From the NCBI GenBank assembly GCA_013697005.1, contig JACCXM010000033.1, forward strand, positions 1 to 42,830: a stretch of 42,830 bases of DNA, read 5' to 3'. Each line of letters opens with the position of its first letter. The first letter of the stretch is position 1. A model generated the notes under the pieces. It had not been told where the DNA came from. It did no database searches and saw only the letters and a list, made by a program, of their open reading frames with translations. Positions 3,057 through 21,333 of the stretch are shown here, piece after piece. The position numbers were made by a program, and so were the translations under genes. Source of the DNA: Chloroflexia bacterium (GTDB taxonomy: Bacteria; Chloroflexota; Chloroflexia; Thermomicrobiales; UBA6265).

Positions 3057-3141
3057 GCCCAGGTGGCGGAACTGGCAGACGCGCTAGCTTGAGGGGCTAG
3101 TGCCCGATTAGGGCGTGAAGGTTCAAATCCTTTCCTGGGCA
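3057..3141 (+). tRNA. tRNA-Leu (GAG)
   Basis: Class II tRNA of 85 nt with a long variable arm. Acceptor GCCCAGG (3057-3063) pairs with CCTGGGC (3134-3140), and the discriminator A is at 3141. The anticodon stem-loop GCTAG-CTTGAGG-GGCTAG region exposes GAG, reading CUC/CUU leucine codons. The T-arm GGTTCAAATCC is canonical. The 3' CCA is not encoded (the following bases are CCG), so it needs CCA-adding enzyme. It is first in the Leu-Val-Phe cluster. Confidence 0.95.
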
Positions 3142-3159
3142 CCGCTTCCCGCCAGCCAT

Positions 3160-3235
3160 GGGCGATTAGCTCAGCTGGAAGAGCGCCACGTTTACACCGT
3201 GGATGTCAGAGGTTCGAGCCCTCTATCGCCCACCA
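3160..3235 (+). tRNA. tRNA-Val (TAC)
   Basis: A 76-nt tRNA including encoded CCA (3233-3235). Acceptor GGGCGAT (3160-3166) pairs with ATCGCCC (3225-3231). The D-arm is GCTCAGCTGGAAGAGC, the anticodon arm has CACGT/ACCGTG with the loop exposing TAC, and the T-arm GGTTCGAGCC is canonical. It is 18 nt downstream of tRNA-Leu(GAG). Confidence 0.96.
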
Positions 3236-11538: not shown

Positions 11539-12231
11539 ATGGTTGGGCCATTGCCACCGAAACGCAACGTCGATCCCTATCAGCAAATCTGGGACGCGTT
11601 CCAGCAGAGTGAGACCACCAGCGATGGCCGGCATGACACACCGTACTGGCGCGCGCAACCCGGTCCGTATGCCGCGTGCGTCGTCCGCGTACCTGGTCAG
11701 GTGCTCGAGCCTGGACTCAGCCGCGTGCGCGGTGATCTCTCACGGCTGTTGGGAACTCGCATTCATCCCGATCATTTCCTGCACATCATGCTTCAGGAGC
11801 TCGGATTCGTCGTCGACCAACCCCGGCGCCCTGATGAGATCAGCGCCGCCCGGCTGGAAGAATTCGCGCACGCCGCGGCCGAACCGGTTTCCCGCATCGC
11901 GCCGTTCCCGGTTGCTCTTGGCGGCGTAAATACATTTCAGGACGCCGTTTTTCTGGAGGTTCGCAGCGCTGAACCGCTTGCTCAAATCCATGAGCGGTTA
12001 TTCGACCTGGCAGCCGTACCGCACGTTCCAACATTTCCCTATTTGCCTCATTGCACCATCGCGCACTACGACGGCAATGTTTCTCCTCGTGAAGCGATGC
12101 GAATTCTCGACCCTTGGAGAAACGATGTCTGCGGCGAATTCATGGTGGCCGAAATCGAAATCGTGACCATCGATCCCGCCGAGTCTTATCCCGAATTCGA
12201 GAGTTTCGCCGTCATTCCGCTGGCGACGTGA
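11539..12231 (+). CDS. 2'-5' RNA ligase (2H phosphoesterase) superfamily protein
   Basis: A 230-residue protein resembling the LigT/2H superfamily, which acts on 2',3'-cyclic or 2'-5' phosphodiester bonds in RNA or nucleotides. The second HxT motif is intact in PHCTIAHY (about 171-178). The first is less standard, HFLHIML (about 78-84), where methionine replaces the usual threonine/serine after the histidine. The pseudo-symmetric fold is consistent with two such motifs about 95 residues apart. The start at ATG 11539 lies 7 nt after the greA-type gene; the open frame also continues upstream inside greA, which is spurious. The 3' end overlaps the convergent leuB gene by 20 nt. Substrate unknown; RNA repair near an elongation factor is only a context hint. 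Confidence 0.7.
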   Translation: MVGPLPPKRNVDPYQQIWDAFQQSETTSDGRHDTPYWRAQPGPYAACVVRVPGQVLEPGLSRVRGDLSRLLGTRIHPDHFLHIMLQELGFVVDQPRRPDEISAARLEEFAHAAAEPVSRIAPFPVALGGVNTFQDAVFLEVRSAEPLAQIHERLFDLAAVPHVPTFPYLPHCTIAHYDGNVSPREAMRILDPWRNDVCGEFMVAEIEIVTIDPAESYPEFESFAVIPLAT

Positions 12232-13342
12232 TCCTCGTAGCCGCGCCCCGTTCTGTGACATGACGTACGACCTCGTCCCCGAACTCAGCGGTGCTGACGG
12301 CCGCTACGTCCCGCTCCGCGATGTCGATAGTTCGCACCCCGGATGCAATCACGTTAGAAACCGCCTGCTCGATCTTTCGAGCCAGGTCGGGCATTCCGAG
12401 CGACCATCGCAACAGCATCGCTCCCGACAGAATCGCTCCCGCCGGATTGGCGCGGCCCTTGCCCGCGAGATCGGGCGCGCTCCCGTGAATCGGCTCATAT
12501 AGACCGTATCGCGTTCCCGGTTGCATCCCTACCTTGTCGCTCAGGCTGGCCGAAGGCAGAAGACCGATCGATCCCGAGAGGACGGACGCCTCATCGGTGA
12601 GGATGTCGCCGAACATGTTTTCGGTCACGATCACGTCGAATCTGCCCGGATTCTGGATCAGGTGCATCGCCATCGCGTCGACAAGAATATGCTCGGTTTC
12701 GACGTCCGCATACTCTTCTCGCAGTTCATCGACAACCTCGCGCCATAGCTGCGACGTACGAAGGACGTTTGACTTATCCACACTCGTCAGCCGGCCCCGG
12801 CGCGTTCGCGCCAGTTCATAAGCAAGGCGCACGACCCGTTCGATCTCGTCATCGCGGTAGCGCAGCGTGTCGACCGCCGACCGGCCCCGAGCACTGACCC
12901 ACCGTCGGGATGGCCTGCCAAAGTAGATCCCGCCCGTTAACTCTCGCACCACAAGAAGATCGACATGCTCGACGATCTCGGCTCTCAATGGCGAGTTTTG
13001 CACGAGCGCGGGAAGCACGTGAACCGGCCGCAGGTTTGCAAAGAGACCGAGGGCGTGGCGAATCTGAAGGAGACCCCGCTCTGGTCGCAGTGCCGGCTCC
13101 ACGGCGTCCCATGCCGGTCCACCCACCGCCCCAAGGAGCGCCGCGTCAGCGTTTCCGGCAAGGTCTATGTCCGATTGACGAATCGGCAACCCGAAACGAT
13201 CGAGTGCATCACCACCTATGGCAAGCGGAACAAACTCAAAAGTTTCCCCGGACCGCCCCTCCACCGCACGCAGCGCCTTTACCGCCTCCGCGATGACCTC
13301 GGGACCGATCCCATCGCCGGCGAAAAGCGCGATTCTCGGCAT
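12212..13342 (-). CDS. leuB: 3-isopropylmalate dehydrogenase LeuB
   Basis: Third step of leucine synthesis: NAD-dependent oxidation and decarboxylation of 3-isopropylmalate. The 376-residue protein starts MPRIALFAGDGIGPEVIAEA. It shows the LeuB-specific region ANLRPVHVLP, VRELTGGIYFGRPSR, the catalytic lysine in SVDKSNVLRTSQLWREVV, DAMAMHLIQNPGRFDVIVTENMFGDILTDEAS, and the NAD-binding EPIHGSAPDLAGKGRANPAGAI. The start has GAGGA 5 nt upstream. It is the last gene of the ilv-leu operon, 93 nt after leuD, the largest gap in that operon. Its stop lies 20 nt inside the convergent 2H gene. Regulation is expected from the leader at 20.6 kb. Confidence 0.97.
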   Translation of the reverse strand: MPRIALFAGDGIGPEVIAEAVKALRAVEGRSGETFEFVPLAIGGDALDRFGLPIRQSDIDLAGNADAALLGAVGGPAWDAVEPALRPERGLLQIRHALGLFANLRPVHVLPALVQNSPLRAEIVEHVDLLVVRELTGGIYFGRPSRRWVSARGRSAVDTLRYRDDEIERVVRLAYELARTRRGRLTSVDKSNVLRTSQLWREVVDELREEYADVETEHILVDAMAMHLIQNPGRFDVIVTENMFGDILTDEASVLSGSIGLLPSASLSDKVGMQPGTRYGLYEPIHGSAPDLAGKGRANPAGAILSGAMLLRWSLGMPDLARKIEQAVSNVIASGVRTIDIAERDVAAVSTAEFGDEVVRHVTERGAATRITSPAE

Positions 13343-13435: not shown

Positions 13436-14038
13436 CTAGTCGGGATCGACACTTGGCATCCACGCTGGCCGCCCAGTTTCGTACGCCGAAATCTTGTCGA
13501 CGTGCCGCAACGACAATCCAATGTCGTCCAATCCCTCGAGCAAGCGATGACGCGTGAATTCGTCGAGCGTGAACTCGGATTCCAATCCCACGCTTGGCGC
13601 GGAAATCCATCCTTCGGCCACATCGATCATGATCTCCAGCGTCGGATCATGTTCGACTGCCCGCAGCAGTGCCTCGCCGAACTCCTCCGAGACGACCACC
13701 GGCACCAGACCCGTCTTGGTCGCGTTGTTCCGGAAAATATCACCAAAGCGCGGTGAAACGACTGCCTCGAACCCGAAATCGGTCAACGCCCAAACCGCAT
13801 GTTCGCGCGACGAGCCAATCCCGAAATTGGGACCAGCGATGAGAATTTTTGCTCCGCCGAACTCTGGCCGGTTCAGCACGAAGTCGGGATCATTTTCTCG
13901 CCATGCCGAAAAAAGTCCTATACCAAACCCCGTTCGCTCCACGCGTTTCAACCAGGACGCGGGGATAATCTGATCCGTGTCGACGTCGCTCCGATCCAGT
14001 GGCGCCGCCGTTCCCACAATGCGTGTCACGGGTTGCAT
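13436..14038 (-). CDS. leuD: 3-isopropylmalate dehydratase small subunit LeuD
   Basis: Small (swivelling) subunit of isopropylmalate isomerase, a heterodimer with LeuC. The 200-residue protein has TAAPLDRSDVDTDQIIPASWLKRV, FGIGLFSAWRENDPDFVLN, the substrate-binding loop GPNFGIGSSREHAVWAL and PRFGDIFRNNATKTGLVPV, all typical of bacterial LeuD. The start at ATG 14038 lies 4 nt after the leuC stop, so translation is probably coupled. A longer reading back to 14149 would overlap leuC and is rejected. It is the sixth gene of the ilv-leu operon. Confidence 0.97.
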   Translation of the reverse strand: MQPVTRIVGTAAPLDRSDVDTDQIIPASWLKRVERTGFGIGLFSAWRENDPDFVLNRPEFGGAKILIAGPNFGIGSSREHAVWALTDFGFEAVVSPRFGDIFRNNATKTGLVPVVVSEEFGEALLRAVEHDPTLEIMIDVAEGWISAPSVGLESEFTLDEFTRHRLLEGLDDIGLSLRHVDKISAYETGRPAWMPSVDPD

Positions 14039-14042
14039 CGGT

Positions 14043-15443
14043 TTACCCGAGCTCGGATGGTGTTGCGAACGTCCCGGCGATCGCCGTGGCGGCGGCGACA
14101 GCGGGCGATACCAGGTGGGTTCGCCCCCCCGGTCCCTGCCGTCCTTCAAAGTTTCGGTTCGACGTCGACGCGCAGCGCTCCCCAGCTCGCAGTTTGTCTG
14201 CGTTCATCCCCAGACACATCGAGCAGCCCGCGGCGCGCCACTCGAAACCAGCATCCTTGAATATCCGGTCCAGACCTTCCACCTCAGCCTGGGCCCGCAC
14301 CATCATTGAGCCGGGCACAACCATGGCGCGGACGTTCGGCTTCACCGTTCGTCCCGCTACGACGTCTGCCGCAAGCCGCAAGTCCTCGATACGGCTATTC
14401 GTACAAGAGCCAATAAAGACGGTATCGACCGCAATCTCCCGCATGGGAGTTCCCGGGACAAGCCCCATGTACGTCAGCGCTCGCGCCGCTACTTCGCGCG
14501 CGCCAGCGTCGTCGAAACTTTCCGGACTGGGCACCGCCCCGTCAATCGGCACGACCTGTCCAGGGTTCGTTCCCCAGGAGACGTGCGGCCGAATTGCCGA
14601 TCCGTCCAGCGCGACGTCGCGCGCGAATTCCGCCGCGCTATCTGTTGGCAAGGTGCGCCAATCGTCCAGGGCCCGCTCCCAGAGAACGCCTCTGGGGGCA
14701 TACTTGCGACCTTCAACATAGGCGAAGGTCGTGTCGTCTGGCGCGATCATCCCCGCTTTGGCTCCAGCTTCGATCGACATGTTGCAGATCGTCATCCGGC
14801 CTTCCATCGACAGCGCCCGTATAACCGAGCCCCGGTACTCGATAATGTGCCCGATACCACCGCCGGTGCCGATCATGCCAATGATGGCGAGAATCACGTC
14901 CTTCGCCGTCACTCCCGGTTGGAGGTCTCCGTCTACCGTAATGGCCATCGTCCTGGGTCGGATTTGCGGCAGGCACTGGGTCGCCATGACGTGCTCGACT
15001 TCGCTGGTGCCGATACCAAACGCGAGTGCGCCGAAGGCGCCATGGGTTGAAGTGTGGCTGTCCCCACAAACGACGGTCATCCCCGGCATGGTCAGTCCCA
15101 ACTCGGGACCAATCACATGCACGATGCCCTGGTTCGGATGAGCGAGCGGGTACAGCTCAATGCCAAATGCCGCGCAGTTCGTATCGAGGGCTCGTAGCTG
15201 GGTTGCCGAAACCGGATCCGCAATCGGCCGATCGATGTGAATCGTCGGTACGTTGTGGTCCGCCGTGGCAAGTGTCAAATCAGGCCGCCGTACGGGACGG
15301 TTCGCCAGCCGCAGTCCGTCGAAGGCCTGTGGCGAGGTCACCTCATGCACGAGATGCATATCGATGTACAGCAGATCCTGATCGCCTGGAGCCTCGTGCA
15401 CCAGATGGCGTTCCCACAATTTTTCACTCAGCGTTTTCGACAT
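14043..15443 (-). CDS. leuC: 3-isopropylmalate dehydratase large subunit LeuC
   Basis: Aconitase-family [4Fe-4S] subunit of isopropylmalate isomerase; 466 residues, the standard length. It begins [17 protein letters not shown] and contains [38 protein letters not shown] and [12 protein letters not shown]. The three cluster cysteines lie in [13 protein letters not shown] and GCSMCLGMN. The start ATG at 15443 shares its A with the leuA stop (TGATG), giving a one-base overlap and coupled translation. The frame stays open upstream to 15818 inside leuA, with Arg/Ser-rich sequence that is not LeuC. The cluster assembly partner genes are not in the window. Confidence 0.98.
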
Positions 15444-17032
15444 CAGGTCCACCGGGAGACGGCCGACACGGGACCGGGAATAATCGCCGTTGGTTGATCT
15501 TGCAGCACGTTGCTCAACGCCGCCAGATAGGCCCGCGCACTCGCTTCGATAACGTCGGTCGCCAGTCCGTGACCGGTGTACACCCGGCCGTTGGCGCGAA
15601 TGCGAAGCCTGACCTGACCCTGGGCGTCTTCCCCTGGTGTCACGGCTTCGACGTGATAATCCTCGAGCTCGCACGGAATCCCGATCGCGCTGTCGATCGC
15701 TTGAAAGAGGGCGTGCACGGCGCCGTTGCCTTGTCCGTCGCCACTGATTTCCTGACCCTCGCGATTCACCACCACACTTCCCGTGGCCGGCCCATTGGAG
15801 CCCAGACTCGCGTTCCATCGCACAAGGTGCAGCGGGTCATCGGCCACTTCGAGTTGATCGCTGACGAGTGCGACGAGGTCAGCCGCGGTAACGAATTTCT
15901 TGCGATCTGCAAGATCGAGAAATCGCTGATACGACTCGTTGAGTTGATCGTCATCAAGCCGGATTCCTACCTCCTGCAACGTATTACGGAACCCGGCCCG
16001 CCCCGAATGCTTTCCGAGCACGAGGCGGGTTCCTTCCCAGCCAACGTCTGTGGGATCCATGATTTCGTAAGTCGTCCGCTCTTTGAGCATCCCGTCCTGA
16101 TGGATACCCGCCTCATGCGCGAATGCGTTCGCACCCACGATCGCCTTGTTCGGTTGAACGACTACCCCGGTCAGGCTGCTCACCAACCGGCTGGTCGGAA
16201 CGAGGCGGTCTTTGCGGATGCGAGTCCACCCGCCGCCAAACTGATCGCCACGCGTCGCCAACGCCATCACGACTTCCTCGAGCGACGTGTTCCCGGCACG
16301 CTCACCAATCCCGTTCATGGTTACCTCGACCTGGCGCGCCCCGGCGCGGACCGCGGCCAGCGTATTGGCGGTTGCCATACCGAGGTCGTCATGACAATGG
16401 ACCGATATCACCGCTCGCTCCAAACCCGGAACCTGTTCCAAGAGAAACTCCATCAGCGCCGCGTACTCTGGGGGAGATGTGTATCCAACGGTGTCCGGAA
16501 CGTTGAGCGTCGTGGCGCCCGCCGCAATCGCCGTGCCGAACACCTGGGCCAGGAACTCCCATTCGCTCCGGGTCGCGTCTTCGGCCGAGAATTCGACATC
16601 GGCGGTGAAGCCCTTGGCAAAACGCACCATGTGCGCGACTCGATCGAGAACCTCTTGCCGCTCCATGCGGAGCTTGTGTTTCAGATGGATGTCAGATGTC
16701 GCGATGAAGGTGTGAATGCGCGCCGCCTCCGCACCTCGTACGGCCTGGGCGGCACGCTCGATATCTGATTCGTTGCAGCGCGCCAGACCCGCAACTGTCA
16801 CTCCTTTGACTCGATTGGCGATCGAGCGTACCGCTTCGAAATCGCCAGGTGAGGCGGCGGGGAAGCCCGCCTCCATGACATCGATACCAAGCTCGACCAG
16901 TGCGTCGGCAACCTCGAGTTTCTCGTTCGCTGTCAGTGTCGCACCCGGTGATTGCTCGCCGTCGCGCAGCGTCGTGTCAAAAACGATGACACGCTCTGCA
17001 TCCTGCGCTACGTCTGTTGCATCTTTCGGCAT
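15443..17032 (-). CDS. leuA: 2-isopropylmalate synthase LeuA
   Basis: Condenses acetyl-CoA with 2-oxoisovalerate, the committed step of leucine synthesis. The 529 residues comprise an N-terminal DRE-TIM barrel and a C-terminal regulatory domain. Signatures: [15 protein letters not shown] (metal-binding D, about 18-32), [16 protein letters not shown], the metal-binding histidines in [37 protein letters not shown], and [18 protein letters not shown]. The C-terminal about 150 residues form the LeuA allosteric (dimerisation) domain that normally mediates leucine feedback inhibition. The length is that of the long bacterial LeuA type. It lies 3 nt after ilvC, and its stop overlaps the leuC start. 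Confidence 0.97.
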
Positions 17033-17035
17033 CGT

Positions 17036-18067
17036 TCAGCCTCCCGCCTGGCCAGCGACCGCAACCGGACGGCCTTTTCTCAGCCACGGCATCATCTTGC
17101 GCAGTTCCGCTCCAACCTGCTCGACCTCGCTGCCTTGGGCGCTTTCCCGCATGCTGAGAAATCGTTCACGCCCCGCCTCGTTTTCCGCGAGCCATTCTTT
17201 CGCGAAGGAACCGTCCTGAATACGCGCCAACAATCCCTGCATCGTTTCTTTCACATGGCCGTCAATGACCTGCGGACCGGCATAATAGTCACCAAACTCG
17301 GCGGTATCGCTCACCGAGTAGCGCATGTACTCCAGACCACCTTCGTAGATCAGATCGACGATCAGCTTCAATTCGTGCAGACACTCGAAATACGCGATCT
17401 CCGGTTGGTATCCGGCGGCCACCAGGGTGTTGAACCCCGCCTCGATGAGGTTGCTCACGCCACCACACAGTACCGCCTGCTCGCCAAATAGATCGGTCTC
17501 CGTTTCCTCCTTGAAAGTTGTTCCCAGCACTCCCGCGCGCAGCGACCCAAGCGCTCTGGCATAGGAAAGAGCGGTATCCGTCGCCTCCCCAGTCGCGTCC
17601 TGATGCACGGCAAGCAGCGCGGGGACGCCGACTCCCTCCTGAAACAGCTCGCGTAGCCGATGGCCAGGACTCTTTGGCGCGATCATCGCCACGTCGATTC
17701 CCTCCGGCGGCGTGATGGCGCCAAAATGGATGTTGAATCCGTGCGCGAACATCAGCGTCTTGCCCGGAGCCAGATTCGGTGCAATCTCCTCCTCGTACAA
17801 CCGCTTCTGGATGTGGTCTGGAACCAGAACCATGATGACGTCGGCATCACGCGCCGCGTCCGCAACCGAGGAAACCCGCAGACCTTCAGACTCCGCCTTT
17901 GCGCGGCTACTGCTTCCCTCATGCAGCCCTACGACAACGTCGACCCCGGAATCTCGAAGATTCAGTGCGTGCGCGTGACCTTGACTGCCGTAACCAATCA
18001 CGGCCACGGTCTTGCCCTGCAGCGCGTCAAGTCCGGCGTCACTCTCGTAGTAAACCTTCGCGGGCAT
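17036..18067 (-). CDS. ilvC: Ketol-acid reductoisomerase IlvC (class I)
   Basis: Converts acetolactate or acetohydroxybutyrate to the dihydroxy acids in valine and isoleucine synthesis. The 343-residue length is that of short class I KARI. The N-terminal [20 protein letters not shown] leads to the Rossmann motif [18 protein letters not shown]. The cofactor loop [16 protein letters not shown] contains several serines and an arginine, consistent with NADPH preference, though this should not be over-read. The C-terminal knotted domain has [16 protein letters not shown] and the substrate/metal motif [16 protein letters not shown]. The start ATG 18067 (MPAKVYYE) has GGAGG about 11 nt upstream; in-frame upstream ATGs would lengthen it slightly. 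It lies 45 nt after ilvN. Confidence 0.97.
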
Positions 18068-18112
18068 TGCGGCTTTCCCCTCCATTGGTCGATCGAACAC
18101 GTTGCATTCATC

Positions 18113-18676
18113 TCAGTTGCTGATAGCTACCGTTCCATTCCCGGCCACGGCCAACTCGCGGTCCGGCCGCGGACCCTCCTTGACTCCCACCGTTGACGTC
18201 CCACGCATCATGGCCACCGGTCCGGTTCTCACCAGCTCACGGATACCGAACGCCTTCAACATGTTCAGCAACCCGTCGACCTGCTCTTCCGGTCCTGTTG
18301 CCTCGATGAGCAGTGTGGTCGGACTGGCGTCAACGACTCGGGCGTTGTAAATCTGCGCGATCTGCAGAATTTCTGAACGTGTTTGTGATTTTGCCGCAAC
18401 CTTGATCAGGGCAAGCTCGTGCGCTATGCAGTTCAGCGGCGTCACGTCAGTGACTTTCAGCACCTCCATCAACTTGTACAGTTGCTTGCCAGCCTGCTCG
18501 ACTTCCTGATCTCGCCCGAGCACGACAATCGTCATCCGCGATACGCCTGGTTGCTCCGAATGCCCGACGGTGATCGAGTCAATATTGAACGATCTGCGTC
18601 TCAGCAACGAAACCACCCGATTCAGCACGCCGGGATGGTCTTCCACCAAGACGCTGAGGGTGTGCCGGTTCTTCAT
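18113..18676 (-). CDS. ilvN: Acetolactate synthase small (regulatory) subunit
   Basis: Regulatory partner of IlvB that binds valine for feedback inhibition and raises catalytic activity. The 187-residue protein begins KNRHTLSVLVEDHPGVLNRV, a classic ACT domain with the GVLNRV ligand-binding turn, then SFNIDSITVGHSEQPGVSRM. A second ACT-like C-terminal region includes IYNARVVDASPTTLLIEATG. The length is typical of the IlvN/IlvH long form. It lies 9 nt downstream of ilvB, consistent with stoichiometric co-expression. Confidence 0.97.
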   Translation of the reverse strand: MKNRHTLSVLVEDHPGVLNRVVSLLRRRSFNIDSITVGHSEQPGVSRMTIVVLGRDQEVEQAGKQLYKLMEVLKVTDVTPLNCIAHELALIKVAAKSQTRSEILQIAQIYNARVVDASPTTLLIEATGPEEQVDGLLNMLKAFGIRELVRTGPVAMMRGTSTVGVKEGPRPDRELAVAGNGTVAISN

Positions 18677-18685
18677 CCCATGCCC

Positions 18686-20443
18686 CTACCCTTCATACCG
18701 TTGCTGATGCAGCATTCCTGAATTCGCGGCGCCCGGGGGAACGATCGGCCAGACATTCGCTTCCGGCTCGATGACGAAATCGATCAGCACCGGTCCCCGG
18801 ATCGCACGCGCGCGGTCGATCGCGGGACGAATTTCCGCGTCAGTCCGCACGGTGATCCCGGTGATCCCGTACGCCTCGGCGAGCTTCTCGAAATCGGGAG
18901 CCCCGATCTTGACTTCAGAATAGTTCTTGGCGTGGAACAAATCCTGCCACTGGCGCACCATGCCGAGATACCCGTTATTTATGACCGCGATATTGATATC
19001 GAGATTTTCCTGCACCGCCGTGGCCAGCTCGTTGCAGGACATCTGAAACCCGCCGTCACCAATGATCGCCCACACTTCGCGATCCGGCCGTCCAATCTTT
19101 GCGCCGATCGCCGACGGCAGCCCGAATCCCATGGTCCCCAAGCCGCCGGAAGTAATCCAGCGGTCGGGATGGTCGAACCCATAGTGCTGGGCGGCCCACA
19201 TCTGGTGCTGACCGACATCTGTGGTCACAACCGCTTCGCCATCCGTCGCTTCGGCAATCGCCTTGATGATCGTGTAGGGCTCAGGCCATGCGGGCCGTTC
19301 TTCCAACGCCTCGTCCAGCGCACGGTCCCGCCGCGAATCGATCCACGCCAGCCAGTCGTCCCGGTGCTCCTGCTCGACCTCAGGGATCAAAAGCCTGAGC
19401 ACTTCAGCTGCATCTCCAACCACCGGGACGTCGGTGTGGACGTTCTTGCCGATCTCCGCGGGATCGACGTCGACGTGCACGACGAAGGCGTTTGGAGCGA
19501 ATCCACTCACCTGGCCGGTTGCGCGGTCGTCAAACCGGGCGCCAATGTTGAGCAGCAGATCGCATTCATCAAGCGCGTCGTTGACATGTTTGTGCCCATG
19601 CATCCCCATCAGACCGAGCCCCAGCGGATGAGACTCCGGAAATGATCCTAGACCCAGCAGCGTATGCGCGACTGGAATGCCGGTCTTCTCCACGAACTGC
19701 CGAAATAAATCGGTCGCGCCGCTGAGCATGATCCCATGACCTGCCATGACCAGCGGCCTTCGGGCAGTGGCGATCGCATTCGCCGCGAGTCTCACCTGCC
19801 TGATATTCGGCACTGACGTCGGCTGATAGCCACGCCGGTGAACGGTCTGTGCAGGAGTATATGGATGCTTCTGCAAGAACAACGTCTTTGGGATATCGAT
19901 GAGCACCGGCCCCGGACGGCCGGTTGTCGCAATATGAAAAGCCTCCCTGATGGTTGGCGCCAGGTCCTCGATGCGGTTGACAAGATAGTTGTGCTTCGTG
20001 ACGGGCAGCGTAATCCCGGTGATGTCGACTTCCTGGAACGCATCACGTCCTATCAGCGGCTGAATGACCTGTCCGGTAATAGCGATAATCGGGATCGAGT
20101 CGAGCATCGCATCGGCAAGACCAGTAACCAGATTCGTGGCGCCCGGACCCGACGTGACGAGACACACTCCCGGTTTCCCAGTTGCTCGTGCATAGCCCTC
20201 CGCGGCCAAGGCCGCCCACTGCTCGAATCGCACCAGAACATGGTGGAAGCCCGCTTTTGGCAAGGCGTCGTACAGGGGAATAACGGCGCCCCCTGGGTAT
20301 CCGAATACCGTCTCGACGCCCTCATCCTCCAGCGCCCGGCAGACGATTTCCGAACCGGTCAACAATGACCGTTCCTCAGATCGCCCACTTCCCGGCGGCT
20401 GTGCTGACGGGTGCTCCTCCAGCGCCGTACTCCTCGTCGCCAT
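18686..20443 (-). CDS. ilvB: Acetolactate synthase large subunit IlvB
   Basis: ThDP-dependent condensation of pyruvate with pyruvate or 2-oxobutyrate, the first common step of branched-chain amino-acid synthesis. The 585-residue length is normal. TPP and FAD domains are intact: EDEGVETVFGYPGGAVIPLY, SGPGATNLVTGLADAMLDS, GRDAFQEVDITGITLPVTKHN, the TPP motif GDGGFQMSCNELATA...NNGYLGMVRQWQ. The catalytic glutamate is present in VRFEQWAALAAEGYARATGK, but the usual RHEQGA reads RFEQWA here, with His to Phe and Gly to Trp. This is directly encoded and not a reading error in my translation. The start at ATG 20443 is supported by AAGGAG 7 nt upstream. It is the first structural gene of the operon, preceded by the attenuator. 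Confidence 0.97.
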   Translation of the reverse strand: MATRSTALEEHPSAQPPGSGRSEERSLLTGSEIVCRALEDEGVETVFGYPGGAVIPLYDALPKAGFHHVLVRFEQWAALAAEGYARATGKPGVCLVTSGPGATNLVTGLADAMLDSIPIIAITGQVIQPLIGRDAFQEVDITGITLPVTKHNYLVNRIEDLAPTIREAFHIATTGRPGPVLIDIPKTLFLQKHPYTPAQTVHRRGYQPTSVPNIRQVRLAANAIATARRPLVMAGHGIMLSGATDLFRQFVEKTGIPVAHTLLGLGSFPESHPLGLGLMGMHGHKHVNDALDECDLLLNIGARFDDRATGQVSGFAPNAFVVHVDVDPAEIGKNVHTDVPVVGDAAEVLRLLIPEVEQEHRDDWLAWIDSRRDRALDEALEERPAWPEPYTIIKAIAEATDGEAVVTTDVGQHQMWAAQHYGFDHPDRWITSGGLGTMGFGLPSAIGAKIGRPDREVWAIIGDGGFQMSCNELATAVQENLDINIAVINNGYLGMVRQWQDLFHAKNYSEVKIGAPDFEKLAEAYGITGITVRTDAEIRPAIDRARAIRGPVLIDFVIEPEANVWPIVPPGAANSGMLHQQRYEG

Positions 20444-20514: not shown

Positions 20515-20544
20515 CGAAAATGGCCTCCCGGTTTCGGAGGCCAT
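20515..20544 (-). terminator. Attenuator terminator in ilv-leu leader
   Basis: Minus strand: 9-bp stem ATGGCCTCC (20544-20536) / GGAGGCCAT (20528-20520) with a 7-nt loop, followed by TTTTCGTG. It lies about 75 nt before the ilvB start, between the leader ORF and the first structural gene, where an intrinsic terminator would be pointless unless conditional. Confidence 0.8.
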
Positions 20545-20587
20545 CCTGGGAATCGACTTTCGTTGTCTTGCGGCAATCGCCGAACGC

Positions 20588-20625
20588 ATGGCCCCCTTAA
20601 CGCATGCGGCTCCCTACCGGGAGCC
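20588..20625 (-). promoter_or_regulatory. Alternative pairing segments of the ilv-leu attenuator
   Basis: Minus strand, in transcript order. Segment 1, GGCTCCC (20625-20619), overlaps the late control codons. Segment 1', GGGAGCC (20614-20608), pairs with segment 1 to form a 7-bp hairpin with loop GGTA. Segment 2, GGGGGCCAT (20596-20588), starts immediately after the leader stop codon. Segment 2 can pair with segment 1 (7 positions with one G-U), or with the 5' arm of the terminator, ATGGCCTCC (9 positions with one G-U). A ribosome stalled at the Leu/Val codons would cover segment 1 and leave segment 2 free to disrupt the terminator. A ribosome at the stop codon would cover segment 2 and let the terminator form. 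The pairings are read from the sequence; the mechanism is inferred. Confidence 0.75.
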
Positions 20626-20683
20626 CCGTAAGTACGAGGCTGGTAATCTGCGAGCGTGCGCTTCGGCCCAAGCGTTGTGTCAT
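20597..20683 (-). CDS. Branched-chain leader peptide of the ilv-leu operon
   Basis: A 28-residue ORF, ATG at 20683 to TAA at 20597, too short for routine gene calling. The product begins MTQRLGRSARSQ and continues ITSLVLTGLPVGSRMR. Between codons 13 and 23 six codons are for regulated amino acids: ATT (13), CTC (16), GTA (17), CTT (18), CTC (21) and GTA (23). That density, its position about 40 nt after a strong promoter, and the overlapping alternative hairpins identify it as a probable attenuation control peptide, like IlvL/LeuL of enterobacteria or the ilvB leaders of actinobacteria in concept. It has no detectable homology by eye. The ribosome-binding site is weak (GTAGGG just before the ATG). 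It would act in cis by ribosome stalling when charged Ile-, Leu- or Val-tRNA is scarce. Confidence 0.8.
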   Translation of the reverse strand: MTQRLGRSARSQITSLVLTGLPVGSRMR

Positions 20684-20730
20684 AGCCCTACGTTACCAAT
20701 TAATGCTGATCGTGCCCAAGTTCTGGACGA

Positions 20731-20760
20731 ATCGTATTGCGCACACCGCCCGCTTGTCAA
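20731..20760 (-). promoter_or_regulatory. Promoter of the ilv-leu operon
   Basis: Minus strand: perfect -35 TTGACA (20760-20755), an 18-nt spacer and -10 TACGAT (20736-20731). Transcription would start near 20724, giving about 40 nt before the leader ATG and about 280 nt of leader before ilvB. Confidence 0.82.
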
Positions 20761-20796: not shown

Positions 20797-21333
20797 CTAT
20801 ACCTCTTCGACATCATCTGTAGGCTCTAAGTCATGCCGATAATGTCCGTTTTGCTGCGGGCAGACATGTGGCTCCGGCCCCATTGGTTCCCCACACATCG
20901 TGCATCGTGGGCGACCCGCGGCAACGACAGCGGCAGCCTCGATACTGAGTTCCCGCGCTTGCGCACGCGTCATGCGACACGCGAACGCGGCGTCCGCCTC
21001 TTCCTGACCGTTCAAGTCGTGCGCCACGACGACGATTCGGTCCTCGTCGTCGTCGTAACCGAGTTCCATGCGTCCCACGCGAAACTGTTTCCGTGTTTCG
21101 CGGTCAAATTCCGCGATACTGGATGCCCCACTGAGTGGGGATTCCGCGTCTGGCAGCCGCTCGAGCATCTGCTCGAGCGCCAGCCCCAGTGCTTGGAGCT
21201 GCTGTTTTTCCATCCAGACAGCGAACGTCTGGCCATTTACGATCGACAGGAGCCGGAACCTGCGGTCACCTGGTTCGCCAAGTGCTTCGATCTGCATTCG
21301 CTCCGCGTCGAGATCTCCACCCATGCGTACCAA
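20797..21333 (-). CDS. DUF3090 family protein with C-terminal zinc-ribbon-like motif
   Basis: A 178-residue protein matching DUF3090, a family common in actinobacteria and Chloroflexota with no established biochemical role. The N-terminal domain begins about residue 18 (GEPGDRRFRLLSIVNGQTFAVWMEK) and contains a central acidic strand. The C-terminal short metal-binding module CTMCGEPMGPEPHVCPQQNG has a CxxC and a following HxC arrangement. It lies upstream of the ilv-leu promoter on the same strand with no terminator seen in the gap. An extended -10 element, TGCTATGAT (around 21394-21402 on the minus strand), may be its promoter. In actinobacteria DUF3090 genes often sit near histidine-phosphatase or SCO1664-like genes; that neighbour is absent here. 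Confidence 0.85.
   Translation of the reverse strand: MVRMGGDLDAERMQIEALGEPGDRRFRLLSIVNGQTFAVWMEKQQLQALGLALEQMLERLPDAESPLSGASSIAEFDRETRKQFRVGRMELGYDDDEDRIVVVAHDLNGQEEADAAFACRMTRAQARELSIEAAAVVAAGRPRCTMCGEPMGPEPHVCPQQNGHYRHDLEPTDDVEEV

Follow-up and report, generated by a model that had tools for sequence, protein, structure and literature searches.

A putative leader-peptide attenuator of the ilvBNC-leuACDB operon, apparently conserved across the class Chloroflexia

Leader-peptide attenuation is an established mode of ilvB control in enterobacteria and Corynebacterium, with predictions for Mycobacterium and Streptomyces (PMC1262725, PMC8079986, PMC10272879). In Staphylococcus, an attenuator peptide rich in Leu is described (PMC5794164), and the ilvB-OMG and Leptospira ilvB motifs were reinterpreted as upstream open reading frames (uORFs) for branched-chain amino acids (BCAA) (PMC10272879). 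According to a survey from 2010, leader-peptide systems had previously been found only in Proteobacteria and Actinobacteria, to which the Firmicutes were then added (PMC2965389). Leader codon substitution was reported to be without effect on ilvB in Streptomyces coelicolor (PMC1262725), which indicates that similar-looking leader ORFs are not always regulatory in the expected way. For Chloroflexi or Thermomicrobi, no earlier case of leader-peptide attenuation was found in the open-access literature, which does not contradict a preceding sequence-only reading of the DNA studied here, in which no described case from Chloroflexota was known.

The window (the whole stretch of DNA analysed, 42,830 nucleotides) is part of a draft genome of 4.05 Mb in 479 contigs. 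The order Thermomicrobiales, to which the genome belongs, is placed in the Chloroflexota by GTDB, and NCBI now has a separate phylum Thermomicrobiota. The operon is encoded on the minus strand in the order ilvB (acetolactate synthase large subunit, 18686-20443; TIGR00118, 750 bits), ilvN (small subunit, 18113-18676; NF008864/TIGR00119), ilvC (ketol-acid reductoisomerase, 17036-18100; TIGR00465), leuA (2-isopropylmalate synthase, 15443-17032; TIGR00973), leuC (14043-15443; TIGR00170), leuD (13436-14038; TIGR00171) and leuB (3-isopropylmalate dehydrogenase, 12212-13342; TIGR00169), the starts of leuC and leuD being placed at the beginning of the family match. The intergenic gaps are short, with a maximum of 93 bp before leuB. 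A sigma-70-type promoter, TTGACA-18-TACGAT, is located on the same strand at 20731-20760 (TTGACA 20760-20755, TACGAT 20736-20731), as the sequence-only reading had it, and its type is conserved: a TTGACA-type promoter with a 17-18 nt spacer was found 96-132 nt 5' of the control codons in 26 of 26 loci of the family (25 with exact TTGACA), compared to 75 of 520 shuffles.

Downstream of this promoter, a leader ORF of 28 codons (20597-20683, minus strand) encodes the predicted peptide MTQRLGRSARSQITSLVLTGLPVGSRMR, and a counterpart in frame is present in each family locus whose upstream DNA is intact. It reads ATG ACA CAA CGC TTG GGC CGA AGC GCA CGC TCG CAG ATT ACC AGC in codons 1-15 and CTC GTA CTT ACG GGG CTC CCG GTA GGG AGC CGC ATG CGT TAA in codons 16-28 and the stop. 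Both the ORF and the six Ile, Leu and Val codons claimed for codons 13-23 were found where they had been placed; this corresponds to six BCAA codons in 11 and to at most four in any seven. The control codons CTC GTA CTT (Leu-Val-Leu, 20630-20638, minus strand) are almost invariant in the family; GTACTTA is present in 24 of the 26 loci, the other two (L020 and L023) having CTC CTT ATT within VVVLLIT in the same frame. Since the nucleotides differ in these two loci while BCAA codons stay in frame, coding and not the RNA alone is argued to be under selection. The proposal that all three branched-chain tRNAs are sensed is supported in part by the codons: Leu and Val codons are strongly conserved, but Ile is found once only in the window copy, three codons 5' of the Leu-Val-Leu core. 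Taken alone, the window leader is modest evidence, with a whole-leader fold z of -1.94 and no call by the strict caller described below; its Shine-Dalgarno sequence is weak.

Directly adjoining the leader stop codon is segment B, GGGGGCCAT (20588-20596, minus strand), the putative 5' arm of an antiterminator, which can form 9 bp with segment C, ATGGCCTCC (20536-20544). C is common to the antiterminator and the terminator, pairing with either B or D. The predicted intrinsic terminator (20517-20544, minus strand), based on its fold and on conservation in relatives, consists of ATGGCCTCC, a loop of 7 nt and GGAGGCCAT (20544-20520, -17.0 kcal/mol) and a short U-tract. The hairpin is followed by TTT, and the U-tract of the window copy is weak. 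Within the leader ORF, GGCTCCC (20625-20619) and GGGAGCC (20614-20608) form a hairpin (20608-20625, minus strand) that is paired in 26 of 26 loci (100% of cells; one compensatory change, GATCCC/GGGATC in L022), and we infer that it is possibly an RNA-polymerase pause hairpin. The sequences and positions of these two arms, B and C had been given correctly. Of the three mutually exclusive structures proposed earlier, the switch between B:C and C:D is conserved; GGCTCCC:GGGAGCC, however, can coexist with the antiterminator, and GGCTCCC:GGGGGCC was rejected as a third conserved structure (hairpin arm with B, mean z -0.49 in 26 family loci). Pairing of an upstream segment with B, as in a trp-like 1:2 helix, gave a mean z of -0.80 (20 of 26 negative).

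It is very probable from these features and their conservation that ilvBNC-leuACDB is under the control of a ribosome-mediated transcription attenuator. RNA polymerase would start approximately 40 nt before the leader ORF. With charged Leu- or Val-tRNA scarce, the ribosome would stall at CTC-GTA-CTT, where its footprint ends well 5' of B, so that B would pair with C once C is made; no terminator would form and the operon would be transcribed. With plentiful charged tRNA, the ribosome would reach the stop codon and cover B, leading to C:D and to termination before ilvB, and for an untranslated leader the terminator would be the default fold. In simulations with a ribosome footprint assumed to reach 12 nt past the A-site codon, a stall at ATT13, CTC16, GTA17, CTT18, ACG19, CTC21 or GTA23 left B free and gave the 9-bp B:C before D was made, while a stop codon in the A site covered B (B:C 0 bp, C:D 9 bp). 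Folding with and without the leader covered, which had been suggested as a check, thus showed a switch between B:C and C:D that depends on ribosome position. In the full RNA with D already made, C:D was favoured in every case; as the terminator (-35.3 kcal/mol) is more stable than the antiterminator (-29.8 kcal/mol), antitermination would have to be kinetic.

A search of 61 genomes, the source genome among them, gave IlvB in 55. The family set comprises 27 loci with the window, of which the 26 with intact upstream DNA were counted. All 26 carry upstream of ilvB an in-frame leader with Leu/Val control codons, the hairpin, B, C, D and the promoter, so the comparison of relatives proposed with the sequence-only reading disclosed no loss of the BCAA ORF or of the pairing segments. 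Leader length differences among the family loci are almost all multiples of 3. Downstream of the control codons, the conserved segments are of the types GGAGGCC (B), GGCCTCC (C) and GGGAGGC followed by T residues (D). C:D is paired in 98.9% of cells, with two compensatory pairs, and is followed by TTTTTT in most relatives. Compared to B regions shuffled by dinucleotide, the B:C duplex has a lower energy (mean z -2.20; z negative at 25 of 26 loci). By column count, B:C is paired in 88.5% of cells, below C:D, due to mismatch or slid pairing in some species (for example L020, where GAGGACAGC pairs with GCTGGCCTC). Locus L006 has a C in place of the central T of segment C, and B and D both carry the G that matches it. 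Covariation is otherwise sparse within the family, since the helices are very strongly conserved. Two kinds of leader stop position were found in relatives, either just 5' of B or some 10-20 nt 3' of B, and from both of them a terminating ribosome would cover B.

The conserved pairing bears on a first alternative, by which the leader ORF acts on ilvB via translation coupling or Rho-dependent termination and not via an intrinsic-terminator switch. The short U-tract of the window copy and the leader mutants of Streptomyces ilvB, which were unlike the classical attenuation prediction (PMC1262725), would fit this explanation; nevertheless, we consider it very unlikely, given C:D with TTTTTT in most relatives, the conserved B:C complementarity and the approximately 150 nt between the leader stop and the ilvB start in the window.

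The control codons are also distinguished by codon choice. With the 26 family leaders compared to the window genes and the 26 family ilvB genes as background, and with counts that are not independent because the species are related, Val is encoded by GTA in 71% of cases in the leaders, compared to 1.8% in the adjacent ilvB genes and 7.7% in the window genes. For Leu, CTC and CTT together make up 86% in the family leaders; CTT alone accounts for 34% compared to 5.6% in ilvB genes, and CTG for 9% compared to 48%. Ile is ATT in 68% of cases compared to 13% in ilvB genes. Among 51 Leu/Val columns conserved in IlvB, there is none that holds a single codon in 96% of the species. Similar shares, given without genomic background, were obtained for leaders of other Thermomicrobiales (GTA 67%, CTC and CTT 85%, ATT 61%) and other Chloroflexia (GTA 62%, CTC and CTT 82%, ATT 63%). 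Selective charging, a theory for the codon choice of attenuators (PMC1183508), could explain the preference for GTA and CTC/CTT. It does not explain ATT over ATC, for which the same tRNA is expected, so that the speed of decoding or constraints on the RNA may play a part. tRNA-Leu(GAG) and tRNA-Val(TAC), the readers of the conserved control codons, were each found once in the genome, adjacent to each other in the leader's own window (3057-3143 and 3160-3235). The other Leu and Val tRNAs found in the genome survey are Leu TAA, TAG (two) and CAA and Val CAC and GAC.

According to a second alternative, the operon is controlled by a riboswitch or T-box, and the ORF only reflects conservation of the RNA. 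CTCGTACTTA is indeed conserved as nucleotides, and a T-box is present upstream of ilvB in Thermobaculum-type genomes. No match to the T-box (RF00230) or any other Rfam riboswitch was obtained at the window locus or in the sampled family leaders, by which an Rfam/T-box identity of the window locus is ruled out; together with the altered nucleotides and retained in-frame BCAA codons of L020 and L023, and with distant leaders that are alike in amino-acid type and codon choice and not in one sequence, this makes the alternative exceedingly improbable. Rfam leader families (Leu_leader, Phe_leader and others) gave nothing above gathering either, the best being Phe_leader with 20 bits compared to 55; the L032 leader reached 32.1 bits for an Rfam leader family with a gathering threshold of 55.

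In one Chloroflexia family (Thermobaculum-type), ilvB is preceded in 4 of 4 sampled genomes by a T-box and then a BCAA leader. The T-boxes score 131, 137, 106 and 147 bits in G144, G146, G148 and G149 (gathering 93) and are located at 259-476 in L077, 246-455 in L078, 274-488 in L079 and 223-438 in L080, each followed by a leader ORF and a second terminator. CTC follows the conserved GAA in all four and is apparently a leucine specifier, judged from the sequence. B, C and D are readable in the tandem leaders of L077 and L078; B:C pairing is unsupported in L079. No T-box was found in the other tested ilvB upstream regions, and no description of a tandem of T-box and leader peptide was found in the open-access literature. 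Upstream of trpE, Rfam T-boxes were found at 4 of 18 Thermomicrobiales loci (L160 892-1163, L162 1057-1341, L167 3115-3399, L168 3200-3479), so the order uses T-boxes elsewhere too. Most other trpE loci have a similar GCCTCCGTCCC-type terminator below the Rfam threshold. Control of trpE by Trp leader peptides was considered for the relatives and rejected, as no convincing set of Trp-rich ORFs was found.

That the terminator just ends the neighbouring gene (20797-21333), which lies on the same strand immediately 5' of the leader region, and that the leader ORF is incidental, is exceedingly improbable as well, considering the conserved promoter between this gene and the terminator and the comparative data on frame, codon choice and the B arm. 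The attenuation by a leader peptide put forward in the sequence-only reading is, on the other hand, strongly supported by the conserved frame, the control codons, B:C and C:D pairing, the promoter and the folding under ribosome occupancy.

Beyond the family, upstream regions of ilvB were searched with a strict caller, which requires an ORF 9-60 codons long with five or more BCAA codons among 7 and a U-tailed hairpin 15-170 nt downstream. Leaders were called in 22 of 26 loci of the family, 14 of 20 of other Thermomicrobiales families, 24 of 40 of other Chloroflexia and 7 of 39 of other classes, compared to 2 of 125 reverse strands and 1 of 375 shuffles. The caller misses 16 of 40 Chloroflexia loci outside the Thermomicrobiales. 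Several loci without a call nevertheless have a clear leader, among them L033 (VVGILVLTGLPSAGG), L103, L077 and L080. In divergent leaders, the mean z of B:C was -1.35 (37 of 45 negative), and in divergent Chloroflexia the two segments vary in sequence but remain complementary, for example GTGCGGAAGGC with GAACCCTTCCGCA in L082 and GTCGGAGGTTTTGCG with GCGAGCCTCCGGA in L035. From these comparisons, the attenuator is apparently conserved across the class Chloroflexia, back to its base. For the 7 of 39 calls in other classes, B:C pairing is unsupported for the group as a whole, and presence throughout the phylum is therefore not claimed. The motif CTCGTACTTA-4 nt-GCTCCC...GGGAGC was found in 17 stretches among one genome each of 84,980 species, and every one of these stretches is from a draft genome that carries the label Thermomicrobiales, Sphaerobacteraceae, Chloroflexia or Chloroflexi. 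CTCGTACTTA occurs a second time in the window's genome (L183, C405), at a site that was rejected as an attenuator; it lies within an apparent protein-coding gene, which we take by eye to be elongation-factor-P-like. The predicted leader ORF of L045 (G035) holds a second palindrome, GCGCGTTACCCTACGGGTAACGCGC, unlike other leaders. In L096, L097 and L098, all from one Chloroflexia family, the called BCAA-rich ORF is located about 750-840 nt before the end of the region, with a second, longer BCAA-rich ORF downstream.

As a tentative scenario, which we regard as possible and somewhat short of probable, the attenuator would be ancestral to the Chloroflexia, its codons CUC/CUU, GUA and AUU tuned to tRNA-Leu GAG and tRNA-Val UAC as the first to become uncharged; in the Thermobaculum-type lineage it would have been joined in tandem with a Leu (CUC) T-box upstream of ilvB, so that the same tRNA would be read in two ways. 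In the tandem, a single mRNA would carry two mechanisms for sensing tRNA, which may illustrate how either is replaced by the other. The conserved synonymous control codons offer a natural test of the selective-charging theory (PMC1183508) in many species. Leader-peptide attenuation, known chiefly from Proteobacteria, Actinobacteria and Firmicutes, would be extended to another deep lineage with cultured members.

The mechanism proposed is classical, and the lineage, Chloroflexia, is apparently one for which it was undescribed. The leaders of Corynebacterium, Mycobacterium and Streptomyces (PMC1262725) likewise consist of a BCAA leader ORF and an intrinsic terminator upstream of ilvB, as does the Corynebacterium ilvB-II motif (PMC10272879), and Streptomyces IlvL, MRTRILVLGKRVG (PMC8079986), shares the Leu-Val-Leu core. 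The window differs from the actinobacterial ilvB leaders in phylum, peptide and B/C/D sequences, in its longer ORF (28 codons) and the lack of an Rfam match, and its cluster also has leu genes. The ilvB-OMG motif, from various phyla, and the Leptospira ilvB motif similarly represent ilvB leaders containing a uORF, while the leaders scanned here do not match Rfam. The ilv-leu operon of Bacillus subtilis (Leu T-box and CodY, PMC12452182) has the same fused gene content, Leu-tRNA sensing and termination control, but there uncharged tRNA is sensed directly by the T-box, which the window does not have. In the enterobacterial ilvBN, ilvGMEDA and leuABCD attenuators, a stall frees the antiterminator arm and completed translation covers it, as proposed for the window. 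The conserved hairpin of window-type leaders does not involve B, so that no conserved 1:2 protector helix as in trp-type attenuators was found, and in contrast to the enterobacterial attenuators, the mixed Leu, Val and Ile codons would serve the ilv and leu genes jointly.
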